Shown here in pieces: positions 13,798 through 48,135 of a DNA stretch of 48,135 nt. How positions within the stretch are numbered: position 1 is the stretch's first letter; every line of letters starts with the position of its first letter. The notes under the pieces are model-generated. The model had not been told where the DNA came from and did no database searches. It saw only the letters and a program-made list of their open reading frames with translations. Location: positions 1 to 48,135 of IMG/VR virus record IMGVR_UViG_3300013137_000003; one strand, given 5' to 3'. This DNA is from a virus. Position numbers and translations under genes: made by a program.

Positions 13798-13956
13798 TTA
13801 TGCATTCTCCTGTTTCCGTATAGTTTGAAAAAGTTTAGTAGTTTCTAACATAAGTTCCATTAGAACATCGTAGATATCACGAACTGCGTCACCAGTATGT
13901 CTATCAAGAGATAGCTGGACTATCATTGATAAGATGTTTTGTATTGAGGGAGTCAT
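13798..13956 (-). CDS. Small helical protein, 52 residues
   Basis: ATG at 13956 with AAAGGAG four bases upstream. The start lies inside the last codons of the DNA polymerase gene (53-base overlap in another frame), and the TAA falls just before the helicase GTG. The product begins MTPSIQNILSMIVQLS and contains 'AVRDIYDVLMELMLETTKLF', an amphipathic helical pattern. The strong ribosome site, the tight packing between two replication genes and the clean fit in an otherwise empty gap argue it is real. Function unknown. Confidence 0.65.
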   Translation of the reverse strand: MTPSIQNILSMIVQLSLDRHTGDAVRDIYDVLMELMLETTKLFQTIRKQENA

Positions 13957-16447
13957 AAATCTCCTTTAACTTATCAGCGAATAGATTTACGTCGCTTGGG
14001 ATTTGTTTACTTTTCAATTCCTTCATTTCATCCTTACTCATATTGAAGCCTATAGATAAGTCAACTGGAGTTTTAATCTCATTATCGTGCCAGATGAGTG
14101 GGGTTTCAAGAGATTGTTTAATCATGAGTAACATCTCAGCGTGGGCAGTCCAAGGTAATGTTAAGGGAATCTGGAACACTATCGAATCATGGATTTGAGC
14201 AAGGAGTTCGATAGGAGAAAATAAGTGCTGGTTGTAATAGATGAACTCCACTCCCTGCTCATTCACTTTGTCAGCACAAGTACTTTGAGCAAAGTGTGCA
14301 TAAGCCTCACGGTATGTATCTTGACAAGCATTGAGAGGGACATTTGGATAGGATGGGAATATAGGTCCGAGGAATAGTCTGTTACGACCGAAGAGGTTTG
14401 TAACAACTCTATTATTCTTTAACATGCCTTGGATAGTTAAGTGATAACCACCTCGAATTTGCGGATAGCCTTTGTGAATCTTTTCAATAATGTATTTAGA
14501 TTCCGCTTCAGGCATTTCGTTTTTGAGTGCGAATGTTCTATACCCTACATCGTAGTTTATAGCATGGTTACCTTTCTTTCCCCAATAGCGTTCACTTTGC
14601 CTACCATCACCGAGATCGGAGGAACCATCTTCGGATGAGATCTGATCGTAAGGTTTGTTGAAGATAACTGAAGCAGTCATTTTATGTAGGTCAATGCCTT
14701 GTTCGAAAGCTTCGATTTGAGGAATGACACCTCCTACGTAGGCAACGATTCGGTTCTCAATTTGAGAAAGGTCGAAGGAGTAGCCGATATATCCTTCATC
14801 AAAGACGAAGAATCGCAAAAGGTCATGTGGCCAGTTCTGTTGATTTCCACCCTTTCCAAATATAGTTTCACCTGAAGACAGTCGACCAGTTTCAGCACCA
14901 ACAGGTTTGTAACTTGATCTGTATCTCCCATCGTTATCGACTTTTTCTATGTTTAGGTAAGTTGAAATGCGCTTGCTTAGACTACGAATATCAAGCATGA
15001 TGCGGGCTGCTGCTGATCCCTTAACGTTTAGACGAAAGATGCGCTTGAGAGCATCTACGTTGGAAGTTTCGTGGTATTCACCTTTCGTATTTCTATTTTT
15101 ATAAGGTTTGATTTTACATTCTTTATAGAAGTACTTCATCATCTGTGGAGGAGAGTTGTAGTTTATTTCATAGCCGACTTCATCTATCAATGCCTGATTG
15201 AGGGATCTGAGTTCACTTTCCTGTTCTTCCTTGTACTTAATCATCCCTTCAACGTCAATCCTGATCCCACGCTCAGACATATAGATGAGAGGAGAGATTA
15301 ACTTCCGCTGACGTTCGTAGGTTTCAATGTTAAACTGTTTACGGAGTGTCTCGAATTGCTTTGGGAAGGATTCGATAGGGACAATAGCATCGAGACCGTT
15401 GTAGTTCCACCACTCTTCCCATGATCCGGAGCCCATCTTAATCCACTGCTTCCCGTCTTGTTTGTAGTAAGGAATGTCAGTGTACATAGTTGTGACAGCA
15501 TCTAGACCCGCAGGGAGATCAGGGAAACTTATTTTCTGTGCTATCTGTGTACAGTGGATAGGTCCCCGAGGGAGGATTCCATACTTACGAAATAGGAATT
15601 GGAGATCGAAAATGAAGTTCGCACCTCCCTTGGGGATTCGATCATCTTGAATAATGTGAGCGATGAGGAGCATTATCTCCAACTCCTGATCAGGGGTAAA
15701 GTAATCTCCTTGGGAATATCTAAATGGGATAGAAATTGATTCGCTGCTATCGCAGCAGACTGATACACAGTCAACCTCTCTATTAATGACTTCGATGTCC
15801 AAGGAGATGAGTGTGCCTCTTGTTCCAAGGTCAAGACAGTGTTGAAGATATCTGATGCAATTTCCAAATGAAGGTCTAGTGATGACATTTCGTTCTTTCC
15901 TCCTTATTTCTTTAAATTCAGATTCGTATTTAGCTCGGAGTAAATCCTCGCAGATTAAAGGTTTGTTGAGAAAGTTTAGTTTTGGAGGGATGAAGGTAGC
16001 GGTGTGGAAAGTTGGGAGGACCTTGAGGTTTGGAACGAGAGTGGATTCAAGGACACTACCACGCCACTTTGTAATCCCTATGCGATTTGTTAGAGCGAGT
16101 AACGCTATGTTGCCAAGTGCTACGACGCAGTTGAGGTTGAGTTGAGATAGTTCCGCTCCGAGTTCTTGTATGTATTGGTAGCCTTCAGGGTGAATAGTGT
16201 ATTTACCTTTCTCGTCAAGGTCTATGTAGTGTTTAAGGGGTGCATCGAGATCTTTGATTACATTTGTTAGATACAATGAACTGCGAAGGATTTTCGTAAT
16301 ACCTAAACATTCATCAAGGCCTTTCCCTGTAGGACCAATGAAGGGTTTAGGAGGACGAGCTTGTGCTTCTTGTACACCAGGCTGCTCGCCAACGATAGCG
16401 AGTTTAGCTTTGGTATTCCCAGAAGGTGGTACGTAGAGACGTTTCAA
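13904..16447 (-). CDS. polA: DNA polymerase I family A with N-terminal uracil-DNA-glycosylase-like domain
   Basis: 847 residues from a TTG start with GGAGG seven bases upstream. Residues about 15-175 match the family-4 uracil-DNA glycosylase pattern: 'VGEQPGVQE', 'FIGPTGKGLDE', and a late 'PTFHTATF'. The usual N-terminal cysteine pair for an iron-sulfur cluster is absent. A 3'-5' exonuclease follows: D217 and E219 in 'SLDIEV', 'GANFIFD', and 'YNGLD'. The polymerase domain shows motif A 'DLSQIENR' (near 557), motif B around 'KKGNHAINYDVGY' (near 626) and motif C 'IHDSIV' (near 753), with Ser in place of the common Glu. A glycosylase-like domain on a phage polymerase is known from SPO1-type phages. 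This is the genome's replicative polymerase. Whether the glycosylase-like domain is active is open. Confidence 0.92.
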   Translation of the reverse strand: MKRLYVPPSGNTKAKLAIVGEQPGVQEAQARPPKPFIGPTGKGLDECLGITKILRSSLYLTNVIKDLDAPLKHYIDLDEKGKYTIHPEGYQYIQELGAELSQLNLNCVVALGNIALLALTNRIGITKWRGSVLESTLVPNLKVLPTFHTATFIPPKLNFLNKPLICEDLLRAKYESEFKEIRRKERNVITRPSFGNCIRYLQHCLDLGTRGTLISLDIEVINREVDCVSVCCDSSESISIPFRYSQGDYFTPDQELEIMLLIAHIIQDDRIPKGGANFIFDLQFLFRKYGILPRGPIHCTQIAQKISFPDLPAGLDAVTTMYTDIPYYKQDGKQWIKMGSGSWEEWWNYNGLDAIVPIESFPKQFETLRKQFNIETYERQRKLISPLIYMSERGIRIDVEGMIKYKEEQESELRSLNQALIDEVGYEINYNSPPQMMKYFYKECKIKPYKNRNTKGEYHETSNVDALKRIFRLNVKGSAAARIMLDIRSLSKRISTYLNIEKVDNDGRYRSSYKPVGAETGRLSSGETIFGKGGNQQNWPHDLLRFFVFDEGYIGYSFDLSQIENRIVAYVGGVIPQIEAFEQGIDLHKMTASVIFNKPYDQISSEDGSSDLGDGRQSERYWGKKGNHAINYDVGYRTFALKNEMPEAESKYIIEKIHKGYPQIRGGYHLTIQGMLKNNRVVTNLFGRNRLFLGPIFPSYPNVPLNACQDTYREAYAHFAQSTCADKVNEQGVEFIYYNQHLFSPIELLAQIHDSIVFQIPLTLPWTAHAEMLLMIKQSLETPLIWHDNEIKTPVDLSIGFNMSKDEMKELKSKQIPSDVNLFADKLKEIYDSLNTKHLINDSPAIS

Positions 16448-16459
16448 TGGCTAACCTCC

Positions 16460-16484
16460 AGTTTGTCCAAATTTTGGATGAACT
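16460..16484. repeat. Dispersed palindrome copy 4
   Basis: Left arm AGTTTGTCCAAA, right arm TTTGGATGAACT. On the - strand the order is TAG stop of the ParB-methyltransferase gene, palindrome, GGAGG, then the TTG start of the polymerase, the same layout as copy 1. Confidence 0.9.
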
Positions 16485-17805
16485 ATTGATTCATTAAATG
16501 AGCCTTGACAAGGAAGGAATCCTTGTAGGCTTTTGAAAGTTCAAATCCAGTCGCTGTCATTCCGAGTTGGGATGCAGCCAAGATTCCATTACCTGATCCA
16601 AGGAAAGGAATTAAAATACGGGAACCTGCGAAGGCAAATGTTTCATAGATTTCTTTCATCAGTTCGATTGGCCGCTCTGTTGGGTGAGTCTTTTGATTAG
16701 CAGGAACGGGTGAGAAGTGAAAATGGTTCGCACGTCCAGGTTTGTTGAGGGCAGGTTGTCCTTTCCACGCATAGAAGAACATTTCGTAGGAGTTTGATAG
16801 CCGAACTGCAGGGTTCATGTTTTGACCTGGAATGCCCTTAGTCCAGATACCACACATTCGAGTGGTTGAAAATCCAGCGTTGTTCAATTCCTGGAATACA
16901 ATCTCAAACCATGGTTGAGGAGCGAACCAACAGATTAACCAAGAATGCTGAGTCATGACTCGGTAACATTGAGCGAAAAGTTTTGCAAGGAAAACTTGGT
17001 ATTCCTCGACTGGAATTTCGTTATAGTTTTCCAAAATGTACGATGACTCACCATCTTTCTTCTTCTTACCCGTCAAGTCGATAGCGTAAGGAGGGTCGAT
17101 CTCGACGAGATGGATTATGCTGTCAGGGACTTCTTTAATTCCTTCGAAGAAATCCTTAACCACGAAACACTTTGATAACTGATGAACAGTGCTGTCAGTT
17201 TTATGTACTTCGAGTTGTTCAACTATTGCTTGCTTCATCGCTGCTTCATCGATCTTTTTAAGAATCTTAGATGCATCTGAAGCGGTTCGACAGGTTTCAA
17301 ATAACTCAGGAAATGCCTCACGAGCGTTTGCACGCTTGATTGCTTCTGAGACCTCAGTAGGTGATTTAGCACCTATTATTTCTGCAGTGTCTCGCATTCC
17401 CCAGCCTGAAGCCCCAGGTCCAGGCGCTTTAACACCGTGAGTTTCCTGTTGCATAGTATGGATGTCTAAGGTGAGTTGATCTAATTCGTAGAACTCCATA
17501 TCTTTACGCCAGAAGTTTTCGGCCTTCTCAATCATCTTCATTTCGAGTTCAGATAGATCTCTGTTGTATATGCGGACTGGGATTTCAAGCACTTGGTTGG
17601 CAAGGAGAACCGTATACCTCCGTTCGCCTGCAAGGAGTTTATAAGTCCCATCTTCGTTGTCCCTTACTGCTAACGGAGCTATGAGTCCACTCTCCTTCAT
17701 ATTTTCTTCAAGGCCAACTAAGTCTCCCATTACTTTCCTTGCCCTATCATCAACAATTACTGCTGTAATAGGAATCATTCCAACTTTTCCTACATCTATT
17801 GCCAT
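16483..17805 (-). CDS. ParB-like / DNA methyltransferase fusion
   Basis: 440 residues. The N-terminal 120 residues carry ParB boxes: 'LLAGERRYTVLLA' (58-70) and 'EKAENFWRKDMEFYELDQ' (93-110). A helix-turn-helix-like stretch follows (about 138-160, 'RDTAEIIGAKSPTEVSEAIK'). The C-terminal half is a beta-class amino-methyltransferase with DPPY at 237-240 followed by FLGSGNG at 401-407, so it should methylate adenine-N6 or cytosine-N4. Such fusions are common in phages; their targets are usually unknown. It is co-transcribed with the polymerase and could protect phage DNA, mark it, or bind the dispersed palindromes. That last idea is speculation from the ParB-like domain. Confidence 0.88.
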   Translation of the reverse strand: MAIDVGKVGMIPITAVIVDDRARKVMGDLVGLEENMKESGLIAPLAVRDNEDGTYKLLAGERRYTVLLANQVLEIPVRIYNRDLSELEMKMIEKAENFWRKDMEFYELDQLTLDIHTMQQETHGVKAPGPGASGWGMRDTAEIIGAKSPTEVSEAIKRANAREAFPELFETCRTASDASKILKKIDEAAMKQAIVEQLEVHKTDSTVHQLSKCFVVKDFFEGIKEVPDSIIHLVEIDPPYAIDLTGKKKKDGESSYILENYNEIPVEEYQVFLAKLFAQCYRVMTQHSWLICWFAPQPWFEIVFQELNNAGFSTTRMCGIWTKGIPGQNMNPAVRLSNSYEMFFYAWKGQPALNKPGRANHFHFSPVPANQKTHPTERPIELMKEIYETFAFAGSRILIPFLGSGNGILAASQLGMTATGFELSKAYKDSFLVKAHLMNQ

Positions 17806-17810
17806 AGCCG

Positions 17811-18014
17811 TTATTCTCCTTTGATTAGTTTTAACAACTCAGCTGCCATATCAGTATCGACTTTGGGTATAAGTTGTTTTTTACTTCTTATCGTTGTACT
17901 CTTTCTTACTTCAGGTGTTCTGCGACTGAGACGAATCTGACGAAGGCGTTCGAGAGCCTCGTCTGTGCTCATGTCTGTTATTGAAGTGTAGTTAAGAGAT
18001 TCCAAATCAGCCAT
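17811..18014 (-). CDS. Small basic phage protein, 67 residues
   Basis: ATG at 18014 with GGGAGG six bases upstream, overlapping the end of the upstream gene by eight bases. The product has an acidic helical N-terminus ('STDEALERLRQIRLSRRTP') followed by a basic stretch ('RKSTTIRSKKQL'). Short proteins with this E-A-L-x-R-L-R-x-I-R-x-S-R-R pattern are frequent in tailed phages and have no known function that I can name. It sits directly upstream of the ParB-methyltransferase and is probably co-translated. Confidence 0.75.
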   Translation of the reverse strand: MADLESLNYTSITDMSTDEALERLRQIRLSRRTPEVRKSTTIRSKKQLIPKVDTDMAAELLKLIKGE

Positions 18015-18261
18015 CTTTCCTCCCTTCTTTATCCGCAGCGTGCATAGTAGGAAGAATTTCCCTTGGCTTTACAGCGCCGGACATTAAGATGCCAATCGCT
18101 ATTCCTCCACGCTCTTCGATCAAATCAAGGACATCATCAAGGATATGTTGGAACAGAGCCTTACGAAGTCCATACTGTGTAATGAGACGATCAGCACGGA
18201 GTTTTTGTTCTTCAGTTACTTCAAATGAAAAGCGAGGGCGATAGTCTTCGTTGATTAGCAT
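18007..18261 (-). CDS. Small protein with possible ribbon-helix-helix N-terminus
   Basis: 84 residues from the ATG at 18261; GGAGG lies five bases upstream, so this is preferred to the GTG at 18273. 'RPRFSFEVTEEQKLRADRLI' followed by two helices ('RKALFQHILDDVLDLIEERG') is the strand-helix-helix pattern of ribbon-helix-helix DNA-binding proteins. The match is loose. If right, it is a candidate regulator in the early block and one candidate to bind the dispersed palindromes. It overlaps the next gene by eight bases and lies just after the sulfosugar synthase gene. Confidence 0.7.
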   Translation of the reverse strand: MLINEDYRPRFSFEVTEEQKLRADRLITQYGLRKALFQHILDDVLDLIEERGGIAIGILMSGAVKPREILPTMHAADKEGRKDG

Positions 18262-18263
18262 AG

Positions 18264-19442
18264 TTACCTCCACTTAATGTTAGGGTTGAGAACGTCCTTA
18301 ATAATATCGTAGGAGTAGGGCATTAACCTCTCCATTGTTATAGTAATTGAGTTTTGGAAGTCTAAATCTGGGACGAAACCGAGGGTTGATAGATTACTAT
18401 GAACTGGATTGTAGTAGTGTATCTCAGCCTCATTTCGAGGATTTTCAATGTGAGAGATTTTTGGAACTGTGATTCCAAGAATCTTTGCTGACTCACATAC
18501 CATCTCAGTAAGTTCATTGATAGTGAAGGTTTGAGCGAATTGATTGAAGGTTCTGTAGGTTCCCATTTCTGGTGGATTTGAAAGTGCGATTGTTATACAT
18601 TTGATCGAGTCTTCAATGGTTAAGTAACCACGTATTTGGTTACCTAAACCATAGACGGTGAGAGGTTCCTTGGCCAGGGTTTGGACGATGAAGCGGTTGA
18701 TTACTGTACCGAAGCACTCGTCATAGTCGAAACGAGTTAGGCAGCTGTTTGGCAGACCAAACACAATCCCTTGCATGATGTCAGTGGAGCGGAATCCCCA
18801 GTTTCGACAGCAAAACTCGATATTGTGAGTGTCATGGACTTTGGAAAGGTGATAGAAGGAATTTGCAGTGCGAGGGAAAAGGAGATCAGCCATAGGACAT
18901 TCAGCCACTGCTCCTGTATATTCATCTTGGATTTCGCCTATACAATCCTCAGGAATCTTCCCTTCAGATATGTCGCAGTTGGGTGTTCCATACTCTCCCA
19001 TCGTCCCTAATTTAATAAGATGCGCTTCAGGACATTCCTCTTTCATTGACCAAAGGAGGTCCAACGTCCCTATGATGTTCTCCTGCTGTGTTCGAGCAGC
19101 ATAGGAAGGACTGATCATAGACCATGCAGCTGAAGGTTGTTCAGCAAGGTGGATGATAGCATCTGGTTTGATTGTTGAGAGATAGTTCCGAAGATAAACA
19201 GGTGAGTCTATTCCTAAATTACATTCCATTGAGTGGATGAAGTTACTTCCGTAACGGTTTTTCAGTTCAGCGATTCGTCCACTAGGAGATCCAATTGGAG
19301 TTAGTGAATTACTTCCCATATTTTCAACTCTTACTCTGCGACAGTAGTTGTCAAGCCCAGCGACTTTATGACCGAGGGAGAGGAGATGATGAGTTAATGT
19401 ATGACCTATGTAGCCATCTGAACCAAGAATGAGAACTGTCAT
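18264..19442 (-). CDS. UDP-sulfoquinovose synthase-like short-chain dehydrogenase
   Basis: 392 residues with an NAD-binding GSDGYIG (7-13). Hallmarks of the SQD1/SqdB enzymes are visible: 'LAEQPSAAWSM' (99-109), 'KLGTMGEYGTPN' with catalytic Thr147, 'RTANSFYHLSKVHD' with Tyr197 and Lys201, and 'RFDYDECFGTVINRF'. The known reaction makes UDP-sulfoquinovose from UDP-glucose and sulfite, the head-group donor for sulfolipid. The gene is nearly full length for the family and its ATG overlaps the dCMP deaminase stop (ATGA), so it belongs to the phage early operon. In a phage the product may feed an unusual glycan or modify host lipids. The chemistry could also have drifted to another UDP-sugar. Confidence 0.82.
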   Translation of the reverse strand: MTVLILGSDGYIGHTLTHHLLSLGHKVAGLDNYCRRVRVENMGSNSLTPIGSPSGRIAELKNRYGSNFIHSMECNLGIDSPVYLRNYLSTIKPDAIIHLAEQPSAAWSMISPSYAARTQQENIIGTLDLLWSMKEECPEAHLIKLGTMGEYGTPNCDISEGKIPEDCIGEIQDEYTGAVAECPMADLLFPRTANSFYHLSKVHDTHNIEFCCRNWGFRSTDIMQGIVFGLPNSCLTRFDYDECFGTVINRFIVQTLAKEPLTVYGLGNQIRGYLTIEDSIKCITIALSNPPEMGTYRTFNQFAQTFTINELTEMVCESAKILGITVPKISHIENPRNEAEIHYYNPVHSNLSTLGFVPDLDFQNSITITMERLMPYSYDIIKDVLNPNIKWR

Positions 19443-19966
19443 AAGTTAAACCTCCTAATTTTAATCTCTGAGAACTTTATTATAAATCGAGAGTGAATGT
19501 CATAAGGTGTATTGTCTTCAACAACGATCTCAACAATCCCTGCATTAATTAAAGTGCCGAAGCATTTCTGGCATGGGATGAGAGAGTTCATGTAAAGTAT
19601 GGAGCCCCTTGCGCAAGTACCATTCCTCGCAGCGTTGGATACTGCGTTTTCTTCTGCATGTTGAGCAGTGCACCACTCCATACCTTCACCTGAACTGAAC
19701 CCCATGACTTTGCGAGGACATTCTTTATAAAAGCGTTTATGGTCAATGTATTCAGTTTGAAATTCCACTTCGTTAGCCTTTAGTAATAATGAGTCTACCA
19801 TAAAGCGATTATGTCCACAGTGTGGAATACCCCTTGGAGGGCCATTGTAGCCGGTGGAAATGATGGAGTTTTCGAAAACTAAAATGGCTCCTATCTTGCG
19901 TGACAGACAAGGGGATTTCGTGGCTATTGTAACACAGACGTTATGAAAGTATTTGTCCCAGTCCAT
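19439..19966 (-). CDS. dCMP deaminase
   Basis: 175 residues from the ATG at 19966, which has AGGAGG four to five bases upstream; the longer frame to 20011 runs into the structured leader. Zinc-binding residues are H103-A-E105 and P-C132-x-x-C135, and 'GYNGPPRGIPHCG' (39-51) is typical of deoxycytidylate deaminases. It would convert dCMP to dUMP for dTTP supply. No thymidylate synthase gene is visible here, so dUMP would be used by the host enzyme or kept for another purpose. It is the first gene after a structured leader and overlaps the sulfosugar gene by four bases. Confidence 0.9.
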   Translation of the reverse strand: MDWDKYFHNVCVTIATKSPCLSRKIGAILVFENSIISTGYNGPPRGIPHCGHNRFMVDSLLLKANEVEFQTEYIDHKRFYKECPRKVMGFSSGEGMEWCTAQHAEENAVSNAARNGTCARGSILYMNSLIPCQKCFGTLINAGIVEIVVEDNTPYDIHSRFIIKFSEIKIRRFNL

Positions 19967-19986
19967 TTTCCCTCCTAATAAAATAT

Positions 19987-20053
19987 GTGAGATGGAGAGC
20001 AACTGTCGCATCCCTTATCTGTTGTGGAGGTACAGTTGCAGATTCCATCTCAC
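19987..20053 (-). promoter_or_regulatory. Structured 5' leader of the dCMP deaminase gene
   Basis: Two nested perfect stems: 19987-19995 with 20045-20053 (9 bp), and 19999-20005 with 20033-20039 (7 bp). They enclose a 27-base loop. The loop, read on the transcribed strand, contains CCTCC, which could pair with the AGGAGG ribosome site of the deaminase just downstream. A translation-control RNA is plausible; it matches no riboswitch class I know. Confidence 0.5.
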
Positions 20054-41571: not shown

Positions 41572-41882
41572 TGGAAGGAATAAGGTCATCTAAAAACCAA
41601 ATAGAAGCATTTAAAGCATCTTACGTTTGGTTAGATATAGTTGATGAACTAAACGAACTCTTACGAAGAACTACTTTGGAATACGACCTAGTTGGTGAAT
41701 ACCATCTCGACGATGATGGAGGTAAAGTGATACCAACTACAGCCGAAACTTTAATCCACCTTGGTGATATAAAAGGTAGGAAAAAAGCTATTAATTATTT
41801 CAGGTCACTGCCTGACATCTTAACTCAAATGGCAGAAGATAAACAAAAGAGCCGAAGAAAAAAGGAGGTTAGCAATGGATGA
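41571..41882 (+). CDS. Small protein between portal and scaffold, 103 residues
   Basis: The ATG overlaps the portal TAA. It is helical and charged ('NQIEAFKASYVWLDIVDELN', 'INYFRSLPDILTQMAEDKQK'), with a basic end where the scaffold ribosome site lies. Genes of this size and place occur in related short-tailed phages; possibly a head assembly helper. Function unknown. Confidence 0.7.
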   Translation: MEGIRSSKNQIEAFKASYVWLDIVDELNELLRRTTLEYDLVGEYHLDDDGGKVIPTTAETLIHLGDIKGRKKAINYFRSLPDILTQMAEDKQKSRRKKEVSNG

Positions 41883-42660
41883 AGATAGAAAGAAGGAAAT
41901 GATGAAGGAAGTGGATGAGTTGAATAGAGATCTCGGAATGACTATTCCTGAGCCTAAATCAGATCCACCTGAAACTGATGAACCAAAGACAGATGCACCT
42001 ACTACTGACGAACCAAGAACTGATGCACCTACAACAGATGAACCTAAGACAACTCCTCCTGCAACCGAACCACCTGATGAGCGTGATCTTATCATCAAGG
42101 ACCTTCGTGAGCGGATGGACAAACTGGAGAAACCCTCTCCAACTAAACCACCTTCAACAAAGCCTCCGTTGGAAGAACAAGACTTCATCGGAGACATTGA
42201 TGTTTCTGAGTTGACGAAAGAGGACCTTAACAAACTCCTTAACAAAGTCTATATACAAGGAGTCAAGACCAGTGAGCAGTCAATCACTGGAGTACTACCA
42301 AAACAAGTAACTAACATCATCGAAGTGGTTGAACGGATGAAGAAAACTAACGAGGAATTCTATGGGACCAATGAAGATCTCAAACCTTTTCAGAAAGTCG
42401 TAGCTACTGTATTCGATGAACTGGCAACTGCTAACCCTAAAAAACATCTCGATGAGATATTAAAGGCCACTGGGCCTGAAGTGAGGAAACGACTGAATTT
42501 ACCAACACCTGAAAACAAACCTAAACCAAAGGGAAACGATAAGCAAACCCCTCCTCATTTACCATCGAAAAAGGGTAAACCTGGAGGACATCAATCTGAA
42601 CCAACACCAAAGGGAGTGGCTGCTGACATAGAAGCCATGAACAAACTTTTAGGGAGGTAA
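41875..42660 (+). CDS. Scaffold-like protein with tandem D-E-P-K-T-D-A-P-T-T repeats
   Basis: 261 residues, AAAGGAGG just before the ATG. Acidic helical start, then a 30-base (10-residue) tandem repeat with about 2.6 units from 41977 ('DEPKTDAPTT'), a helical middle ('RDLIIKDLRERMDKLEK', 'NEEFYGTNEDLKPFQKVVAT') and a Pro/Lys-rich end. Its place between portal and capsid is that of the scaffold. Residues about 155-205 resemble most of the protein at 45347. Confidence 0.72.
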   Translation: MDEDRKKEMMKEVDELNRDLGMTIPEPKSDPPETDEPKTDAPTTDEPRTDAPTTDEPKTTPPATEPPDERDLIIKDLRERMDKLEKPSPTKPPSTKPPLEEQDFIGDIDVSELTKEDLNKLLNKVYIQGVKTSEQSITGVLPKQVTNIIEVVERMKKTNEEFYGTNEDLKPFQKVVATVFDELATANPKKHLDEILKATGPEVRKRLNLPTPENKPKPKGNDKQTPPHLPSKKGKPGGHQSEPTPKGVAADIEAMNKLLGR

Positions 42661-42667
42661 TATAACT

Positions 42668-43090
42668 ATGGCACTCGAAGACAAAAATGCTCAACATTAT
42701 GGGCAAGTTGTTGACAAGTATCACGACCCTACTGCAAATTACCAGATGACCACTCGGGACTATGTCCTTCGGCCATCTGCTGCAGTGCCCATAACTCTAA
42801 CACTTCCGCCTGTTGCTGAAGCAAAGGGACGCTTATACAGCATCATTGCGAGACAGGCTGATGCAACTAACACTATAACTATCACTGACAATGACGATTC
42901 TGAATGCTGGCTCGGTGATATCGTTCTGAATGGTAAGTGTGATCGGTTACTACTGTACAGTGACGGATTGGCCTGGTTTGCTTTTGAGGAGTTTGGATGG
43001 CCTGGATTTGAGACAACTTCACCTCCGGGTACTTCTGAGGCTCCTACAACTAGGGGTGGAACCACTGCCCCTCCGACCACTCAGGCTTAA
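42668..43090 (+). CDS. Minor head/decoration-like protein with Thr/Pro tail
   Basis: 140 residues, GGGAGG upstream. A compact beta domain ('PITLTLPPVAEAKGRLYSII', 'ATNTITITDNDDSECW') is followed by a low-complexity tail ('TTSPPGTSEAPTTRGG'). Located just before the capsid gene, where decoration or head-fibre proteins are often found. Structural role inferred. Confidence 0.65.
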   Translation: MALEDKNAQHYGQVVDKYHDPTANYQMTTRDYVLRPSAAVPITLTLPPVAEAKGRLYSIIARQADATNTITITDNDDSECWLGDIVLNGKCDRLLLYSDGLAWFAFEEFGWPGFETTSPPGTSEAPTTRGGTTAPPTTQA

Positions 43091-46769: not shown

Positions 46770-48135
46770 ATGTTATTTTCAACATTAGTTGATTATAGTC
46801 CTGGTCCATACTATTTCTCTGGGATAGTCTTCGGTGGAAAGATTTACGCAGGTACTCATGGTATAGCTGCAATAACAAGCTATCCGCCAGAGAATACACA
46901 GATACCTCTAGGTGAAACTGCATTTGAGTTCTGCAGTCATGGTGGAGAGCTGTATACCAATGTAGAGACAGGTGGAGATGTCTATAAATTAGTCGCTGGA
47001 ACTTGGACGTATGTAGGGACTGCTCCTGTTGGATGGGCTCATTCTTTAGGAATGGTGTCTTTCGGCAGCTATATGTATATGGTAGTTGGAGAGTTCTCTG
47101 GAGTATATCCTGTTCGAAACGGCTTGGTTAGATCAACAGATGGAGTTACCTGGACTGAGGTCTTCACAACTGACACTTTATGTTTCAGGGTTTTCACCTA
47201 TGGTGGAAAGTTATACTACGCTGGGACTTTAGCTGTTCCTGATTATAGGCTTGGAAACTGGGCTATCGGTTATGAGTCGACTGATGGAGTTAATTTCGTT
47301 GCTTCTCCTATGCTAAACCTCGGTGTGTTTTCACAGTTCATGGGTGAGTACATAGATTCAGTTACGGGCTATCTGTGGTTTGGCACTGGATCATGGTATG
47401 CAGCTGAAAATGGTCCTGCAAGATTGTGGTATTCACCTGATGGAATTAATAAGTATCAAGCAATTGAAGATCCTAACGTTAGAAGATTCAGTTCCATAGT
47501 CAGAATTGGTGGCACTTTGTATGCCATAGCTGATAATGGCTATGAAGCGTATAGTGGTTATTCAAGGATGTATATAAGTACCAACAATGGAGTTAGTTGG
47601 TCTTATGAAGGTGATTATAGCAACATGCCTTGTGCCACAAAGTTATTAAACTACGGTGGCTATCTCATAATGGTAGGCGGATTGTCAGGAACTTATGGCA
47701 GGATCTTAATTAGCGGTTTGTTAGCCACTACCCCACCTCCAACTACTACATTAACAACAGAGGTTCCGACAACAGGGCCACCAACTACTGCAGCACCACC
47801 TGAACATTATGTTGAAATAAAGGAATATGAAGAATTCTTTCCACCTGTACCTTCTAATGAAGGAACTATTGTGCAGAGTACTAACTTAGGTACATATGTA
47901 CAAAACCATTGGGACCTTCCGCCTAAATTTATAGCTGTTGGCACTGATGGTTACTTAGATATATACCAAAACTGGCACCGTGCTTTCAAAGACTTTCCAA
48001 TTAGTAAATTAGGTGGAAAGGTTATAGTTTCAGCATCTCTTAACTATTACCTTAATCAAGTTTACCAAGGTGATTATATAACTGCATATCCAGGTGCCTT
48101 AAATGTAAGTTTACATCGTGTATCTGATTATGGCA
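46770..48135 (+). CDS. Large tail/nozzle-like virion protein, N-terminal part (continues at 1)
   Basis: ATG at 46770 with AGGGG upstream. The frame runs to the window end and on, through the 123-base overlap, to 2648. The first 310 residues look like beta-propeller blades ('GGKIYAGTHG', 'RSTDGVTWTEV', 'YESTDGVNF', 'ISTNNGVSWSYEG'), as in BNR/sialidase-like repeats. A Thr/Pro linker follows ('TTTLTTEVPTTGPPTT'), then a beta domain ('RVSDYGTLDVTDYD'). The propeller could bind glycans or form the tail hub. Confidence 0.78.
   Translation, partial: MLFSTLVDYSPGPYYFSGIVFGGKIYAGTHGIAAITSYPPENTQIPLGETAFEFCSHGGELYTNVETGGDVYKLVAGTWTYVGTAPVGWAHSLGMVSFGSYMYMVVGEFSGVYPVRNGLVRSTDGVTWTEVFTTDTLCFRVFTYGGKLYYAGTLAVPDYRLGNWAIGYESTDGVNFVASPMLNLGVFSQFMGEYIDSVTGYLWFGTGSWYAAENGPARLWYSPDGINKYQAIEDPNVRRFSSIVRIGGTLYAIADNGYEAYSGYSRMYISTNNGVSWSYEGDYSNMPCATKLLNYGGYLIMVGGLSGTYGRILISGLLATTPPPTTTLTTEVPTTGPPTTAAPPEHYVEIKEYEEFFPPVPSNEGTIVQSTNLGTYVQNHWDLPPKFIAVGTDGYLDIYQNWHRAFKDFPISKLGGKVIVSASLNYYLNQVYQGDYITAYPGALNVSLHRVSDYG
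48013..48135. repeat. Terminal direct repeat, right copy
   Basis: Identical to bases 1-123; marks the circular joint. The unique genome length is therefore 48,012 bases. Confidence 0.95.

Follow-up and report, generated by a model that had tools for sequence, protein, structure and literature searches.

The window analysed here comprises the whole stretch of 48,135 nucleotides. Its phage origin was confirmed for this IMG/VR record, which encodes a terminase, a portal, a major head protein and replication genes (PolA, primase, ligase and Sak4). An exact direct repeat of 123 bp is found at its ends (1–123 and 48013–48135); in many relatives, the end repeats measure 114 or 127 bp, sizes that resemble assembly overlaps of circular genomes. 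The open reading frame to which an earlier note on this DNA had drawn attention (18264–19442) is real. It lies on the minus strand and encodes 392 amino acids, starts with ATG and is preceded by the Shine-Dalgarno-like TTAGGAGG; the plus strand of the same span is full of stops. A dCMP deaminase-like gene (19439–20011, minus strand, Pfam dCMP_cyt_deam_1) overlaps this gene, referred to as SqdB in the following, by 4 bases. Two small ORFs without a Pfam match directly follow SqdB throughout the lineage: a conserved ORF of 88 amino acids within the operon, which belongs to no family (18007–18273, minus strand), and a second one at 17811–18014 (minus strand). The genes for an N6/N4 DNA methyltransferase fused to a ParB N-terminal domain (16483–17805, minus strand), a core gene of the whole lineage, and for DNA polymerase A (13904–16447, minus strand) complete this part of the locus. 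In the polymerase, an N-terminal uracil-DNA-glycosylase-like domain (family 4/UdgX-type) is fused to the exonuclease and polymerase.

The operon is common to about half of the 80 contigs that were kept, in the order ligase, HIRAN, PD-(D/E)XK, Sak4, SSB-like, (dCMP deaminase), SqdB, orf88, orf67, ParB-methyltransferase, PolA and primase. Among relatives picked by the ParB-methyltransferase, SqdB behaves as a clean cassette that enters and leaves this operon. Relatives of SqdB are encoded on at least 124 viral contig stretches, and a search of named phages (50,697 records) gave no homologue of SqdB or of the partner glycosyltransferase described below.

Over residues 1–392, SqdB matches the NCBIfam model of UDP-sulfoquinovose synthase, NF041015 (401 bits, E 4e-120), and it shares 44% identity over 364 residues with the Arabidopsis SQD1 structures (E 7e-90). 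The score of 401 bits lies below the equivalog cut-off of 575 bits. In a calibration, Arabidopsis SQD1, the activity of which is proven (Sanda 2001, as cited in PMC4388408), reached 471 bits and an sqdBDC-type SqdB 338 bits. As these two also fall short of 575, falling short of it says nothing, and the cut-off was rejected as a test of function. The AlphaFold2 model of SqdB (pLDDT 93.6) superimposes on SQD1 (1i24) with a TM of 0.92 and 1.9 Å, compared to a TM of 0.68 for the next epimerase. In an outgroup-rooted tree, the SqdB family is set apart by a long branch with full support (100*). The phage copies nest inside a clade with the Sulfolobales (Agl3 group) and thaumarchaeal copies, and are placed by the tree between proven lineages. 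Sequence, fold and tree all place the window gene in the SqdB/SQD1/Agl3 family, which bears out the identification in the earlier note; the phylogeny recommended there places the phage protein within the SqdB family and not among ordinary epimerases. Pairs of viral SqdB copies show dN/dS values of 0.07–0.13, i.e. purifying selection, and the gene is therefore maintained.

The UDP-sulfoquinovose synthase fingerprint [ST]MG...YxxxK (PMC8987622) is matched by T147-M148-G149, Y197 and K201. In Agl3, the exchanges H95A, R101A, M145A, Y182A, and K186A abolished activity, and E147A, Y148A, and S180A impaired it (PMC4388408). Agl3 His95, Met145, Glu147, Tyr148, and Ser180 correspond to H98, M148, E150, Y151, and S195 in the window enzyme, in which Thr147-Met148-Gly149, Glu150, Tyr151, Ser195, Tyr197, His198, and Lys201 are kept. 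All residues mutated in Agl3 are conserved except for Arg101, which is replaced by Pro103. The earlier description of the SQD1/SqdB signatures as intact thus holds for the residues it named (Thr147, Tyr197, Lys201 and R237-F-D-Y-D241, all present) and not for the essential Arg101, which it had missed.

At position 101 (SQD1/Agl3 numbering), Pro was found in 63 of 63 distinct viral sequences, a set biased for Pro101 because the pattern used to retrieve the contig relatives contains this Pro, and in 12 of 12 thaumarchaeal sequences. The Pseudomonadota and archaeal sets are free of this bias. Arg or Lys occupies the position in SQD1, in the sqdBDC type (10/10) and in Sulfolobales, 13 of which have Arg and 1 Lys. 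As Pro-type thaumarchaea, whose proteins score above the NCBIfam equivalog cut-off, group in the tree with Arg-type Sulfolobales, the position is labile within the family. Arg101 does not define the family, in which either Arg or Pro can occupy this place. This Arg/Pro split runs inside the UDP-sulfoquinovose synthase family, and most Pro-type enzymes seem to be without functional tests.

A CysH-type PAPS/APS reductase adjoins SqdB, or lies within two genes of it, in three distinct phage records outside the lineage, which fits a sulfite-using enzyme. DUF2061 beside CysH/SqdB was confirmed by Pfam in one record, and a homologue was found in another. The CysH-type reductase and DUF2061-like ORFs near SqdB (L067, L071, and L073/L074) may constitute a sulfite supply of these phages. 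CysH as a general partner of SqdB was rejected, since only 3 of the group's 24 records from outside the lineage contain it. Neither the window nor 16 lineage relatives encode CysH, and sulfite from the host is therefore assumed for the window phage. Sulfate-reducing hosts produce sulfite as an intermediate. CRISPR spacers link the nearest named relative, a Desulfofustis phage, to the sulfate reducer Desulfofustis (PMC10370329), and our guess is that the host of the window phage is similar.

Pro103 constitutes the main doubt regarding the exact product of the window enzyme. A diverged Pro101 SqdB could form another product, either as a UDP-glucose 5,6-dehydratase or by addition of another nucleophile, which the glycosyltransferase would then use. 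In line with such a change, every viral copy has Pro where Agl3 has its essential Arg101, Agl3 yields UDP-glucose-5,6-ene when sulfite is omitted (PMC4388408), and most Pro-type cellular relatives seem uncharacterised. However, Pro and Arg switch within the family, with equivalog-level Pro-type thaumarchaea grouped with Arg-type Sulfolobales, CysH is found beside Pro-type phage copies, and the active site is otherwise intact. We regard a different product as rather unlikely; the phage enzyme probably makes UDP-sulfoquinovose, an activated sulfonated sugar.

Genes that accompany SqdB were identified by a scan of 63 gene families across 25 near-complete genomes chosen by a gene other than SqdB. 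A single family tracks SqdB, namely a glycosyltransferase that is present in 14/14 genomes with SqdB and in 1/11 without (p 3.4e-6); the next-best family reached p 0.012. Within 36 relatives chosen by the ParB-methyltransferase, this glycosyltransferase was found in 17 of the 20 with SqdB and in 2 of the 16 lacking it, and in records of at least 44 kb (n = 26) the counts were 15/15 and 1/11, respectively (p 2e-6). The dCMP deaminase, to which the earlier note had linked SqdB by its position, shows no association (10/14 genomes with SqdB, 8/11 without) and is judged functionally unrelated. A function of SqdB tied to replication or to dCMP deaminase was rejected based on presence and absence across genomes.

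In the window, the glycosyltransferase gene (34957–35925, plus strand, 322 amino acids) lies about 15 kb from SqdB and has a TTG start with AGGAGA upstream. It is preceded by two optional accessory genes. The first, for an NDP-sugar epimerase/dehydratase (33523–34344, plus strand, Pfam Epimerase, E 8e-44), was present in 4/14 genomes with SqdB and in 0/11 others. The second, for a methyltransferase (34295–34960, plus strand, Pfam Methyltransf_12/25), overlaps the start of the glycosyltransferase gene and has homologues at the same position in three relatives. Two genomes encode the transferase without SqdB: G036 (51418 bp with end repeats; loci L377–L379 and L285), where it is diverged, and the partial record G031. 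The transferase family may therefore use other donors. G036 also encodes a poly-Thr/Ser-rich protein of 827 amino acids two genes from the transferase. Among the 24 records of that group from outside the lineage mentioned above, the partner transferase was found in G042 only.

The only Pfam domain of the glycosyltransferase is the generic Glycos_transf_2. Sequence profiles matched GalNAc-T with E 1e-4, more weakly than chondroitin synthase and TarP. As the sequence search alone left the family undecided, the structure was used instead. The model (pLDDT 94.2) is one compact globular chain of the GT2/GT-A fold. VIA-align returned 29 GalNAc-transferase entries as the nearest solved folds (Z 24.0–26.2 over 269–286 residues), with the next fold at 18.9. 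The residues D94, H96, and H222 (DxH ... H, with a DSH motif) are invariant in 44 glycosyltransferase sequences, and we take them to correspond to the DxH and His that bind Mn2+ in GalNAc-transferases. The partner is thus predicted to be closest in fold to polypeptide GalNAc-transferases, with putative transfer to Ser/Thr of peptides; which acceptor it uses does not follow from the fold.

A glycosyltransferase that modifies DNA, with SqdB providing the donor from the replication operon, would account for the place of SqdB in that operon beside the dCMP deaminase and the DNA methyltransferase, and virus transferases are reported to modify DNA (reference list of PMC12619734). However, no DNA-modifying enzymes were found among the ORFs scanned (matches to TET/JBP, thymidylate synthase-like proteins and hydroxymethylases were absent), and DNA hypermodification was rejected on this basis. 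Moreover, the methyltransferase is of the N6/N4 type, the dCMP deaminase does not track SqdB, and the transferase fold is nearest to protein transferases. A DNA target is, in our view, very unlikely.

The foremost candidate acceptor is a small core protein from the head-gene block (42668–43090, plus strand), which is flanked by the scaffold-like protein and the major head protein and ends in the C-terminal tail ETTSPPGTSEAPTTRGGTTAPPTTQA; the members of its family measure 105–150 amino acids. A mucin-like TT..P/APTT tail on this protein was found in 11/11 genomes with SqdB and 0/9 others (p 6e-6), by a criterion that was defined after the first alignment had been seen, and all independent pairs were concordant with the SqdB state. 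Among contigs outside this first set, some of which are near copies of genomes already counted, the tail was present in 11/11 with SqdB or the transferase compared to 0/4 without (p 7e-4). In the four negative contigs (L405, L407, L409, and L481), a relevant locus is covered and the genes are missing; short contigs that show the tail and neither gene were excluded, as the loci may lie beyond their ends.

Strict T/P tracts occurred in 8/14 genomes with SqdB, including long APTTLAPTT arrays in several of them, and in 0/11 others (p 0.003); they were absent from 6/14 genomes with SqdB. When 35 orthologous core families were compared, the top two both belonged to the head-gene block (p 6e-4 and 1e-3). 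The scaffold-like core protein (41875–42660, plus strand), a possible acceptor with the linker TDEPKTDAPTTDEPRTDAPTTDEPKTTPPATEPP, is richer in S/T-P when SqdB is present in the genome than when it is absent (p 6e-4). In this protein and its orthologues, the linker is acidic in genomes without SqdB (EEEPP, DKDKD) and often Ser/Thr-Pro-rich in those with SqdB (STEAP), as if a sulfonated glycan took the place of the acidic residues. Further possible acceptors are a putative fibre protein that runs past the end of the record (46770–48135, plus strand), with the strict T/P tract TTPPPTTTLTTEVPTTGPPTTAAPP, and the product of a small ORF (38085–38309, plus strand) beginning with MTTVPTTVVPTTVPPTTLTTTLPTTVPPTT. 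As their genes lie among head genes, the candidate acceptors of the head-gene block are expected to be part of the particle. At SqdB loci outside the lineage, such tracts were found in 1/23.

Common descent alone explains the association poorly, because the SqdB state is dispersed over the PolA and portal trees, where its 8 changes equal the number in shuffles, and the nearest PolA relative has the same SqdB state in only 14/25 genomes. Well-supported branches provide only 2 to 4 independent pairs and therefore too few for significance. This small number leaves room for SqdB, transferase and tail to have hitchhiked together in mosaic phages with no shared function. Against this, about 15 kb of the window separate SqdB from the transferase, none of the 62 other families co-varies to this degree, the SqdB state is unclustered on both trees, and the contigs outside the first set agree. 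Hitchhiking is thus highly improbable, and the least probable of the explanations considered.

UDP-sulfoquinovose could also be used on a glycan or lipid of the host surface, for superinfection exclusion or as sulfolipid under phosphate limitation. Its known uses are SQDG and archaeal N-glycans (PMC4388408), and in other phages SqdB lies in clusters with several glycosyltransferases, sugar aminotransferases, and methyltransferases. In the lineage of the window, however, the sole gene that tracks SqdB encodes a GalNAc-transferase-like enzyme, modelled as one compact globular chain, the presence of tails on a phage core protein follows that of SqdB, and none of the genes seen in the window is SqdD/SqdX-like. 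A host target therefore appears unlikely. Of the two roles put forward in the earlier note, an alteration of host lipids lacks a sulfolipid-type partner here, and a sulfonated sugar for a glycan is the idea that fits best.

We therefore lean, with some reserve, towards a two-enzyme phage pathway in which SqdB provides UDP-sulfoquinovose and the glycosyltransferase attaches the sugar to Thr/Ser of virion proteins; donor and acceptor are deduced from the co-occurrence of the genes and the tail. By analogy with SQD1 and Agl3, SqdB with bound NAD would oxidise UDP-glucose at C4 and eliminate water to give the 5,6-ene, then add sulfite at C6 and reduce C4 to yield UDP-sulfoquinovose. The sulfite would be drawn from the host or, in some other phages, produced by a CysH-type reductase that they encode themselves. 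The unlinked GT-A glycosyltransferase (34957–35925, plus strand) would transfer sulfoquinovose to Thr/Ser in mucin-like tracts (TT..P, APTT, PSTEAP) of particle proteins, foremost in the C-terminal tail of 42668–43090, and the virion would be decorated with strongly acidic sulfonated sugars. The pathway predicts +226 Da on the named threonines. The broader view that these are tailed phages with a mucin-type O-glycosylation of their own, independent of host glycans, which places a sulfoquinovose coat on virion Thr/Pro tails, seems to us evenly balanced.

If this is true, sulfoquinovose has a third biological use beyond sulfolipids and archaeal N-glycans, viruses of microbes have mucin-like glycoproteins whose synthesis relies on a GalNAc-transferase-type fold, and the PTT-rich tracts in these uncultured phages have a testable reason. 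An acidic coat could affect adsorption, surface charge, particle stability or defence.

The nearest named relative, Desulfofustis phage LS06-2018-MD01 (OP947158), resembles the window phage in its terminase (44%), ParB-methyltransferase (40%) and operon layout, but shows no match to SqdB or the glycosyltransferase and no strict T/P tracts. SQD1-like genes on viral contigs have already been published for a Mu-like virus from the Cariaco Basin (PMC7785012) and for estuarine viruses (PMC13288924). In the available portions of these reports, the genes are interpreted as part of host metabolism or N-glycosylation, with no mention of a partner transferase, of co-occurrence across a lineage or of an acceptor in the virion, whereas gene content, structure, and acceptor sequences in the present lineage point to the virus particle. 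Virion glycosylation by phages is likewise known: in mycobacteriophages, phage transferases place glycans at the C-termini of capsid and tail-tube subunits (Freeman 2023, as cited in PMC12619734). Those phages are unrelated, and the portion of PMC12619734 available mentions no dedicated enzyme for a sulfonated-sugar donor. The combination of SqdB with this transferase fold and such acceptors was not found in the literature searched.

With SQD1 of Arabidopsis, bacterial SqdB and Agl3 of Sulfolobus, the window enzyme shares full-length homology, the fold (TM 0.92), the TMG...YxxxK fingerprint and most residues tested in Agl3. It differs in being phage-encoded, in the Pro at the position of Arg101, and in its partner, which is GalNAc-transferase-like and not a lipid or N-glycan transferase. 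That partner differs from the GT27 polypeptide GalNAc-transferases in its low sequence identity (10–17%), in the lack of a lectin domain in the chain of 322 amino acids, and in the expected donor, UDP-sulfoquinovose in place of UDP-GalNAc; its membership in GT27 is putative. What it shares with GT27 are the nearest whole-chain solved folds and an invariant DSH with a later His, and the Thr/Pro-rich tracts of the phage resemble the mucin acceptors of GT27-type O-glycosylation.
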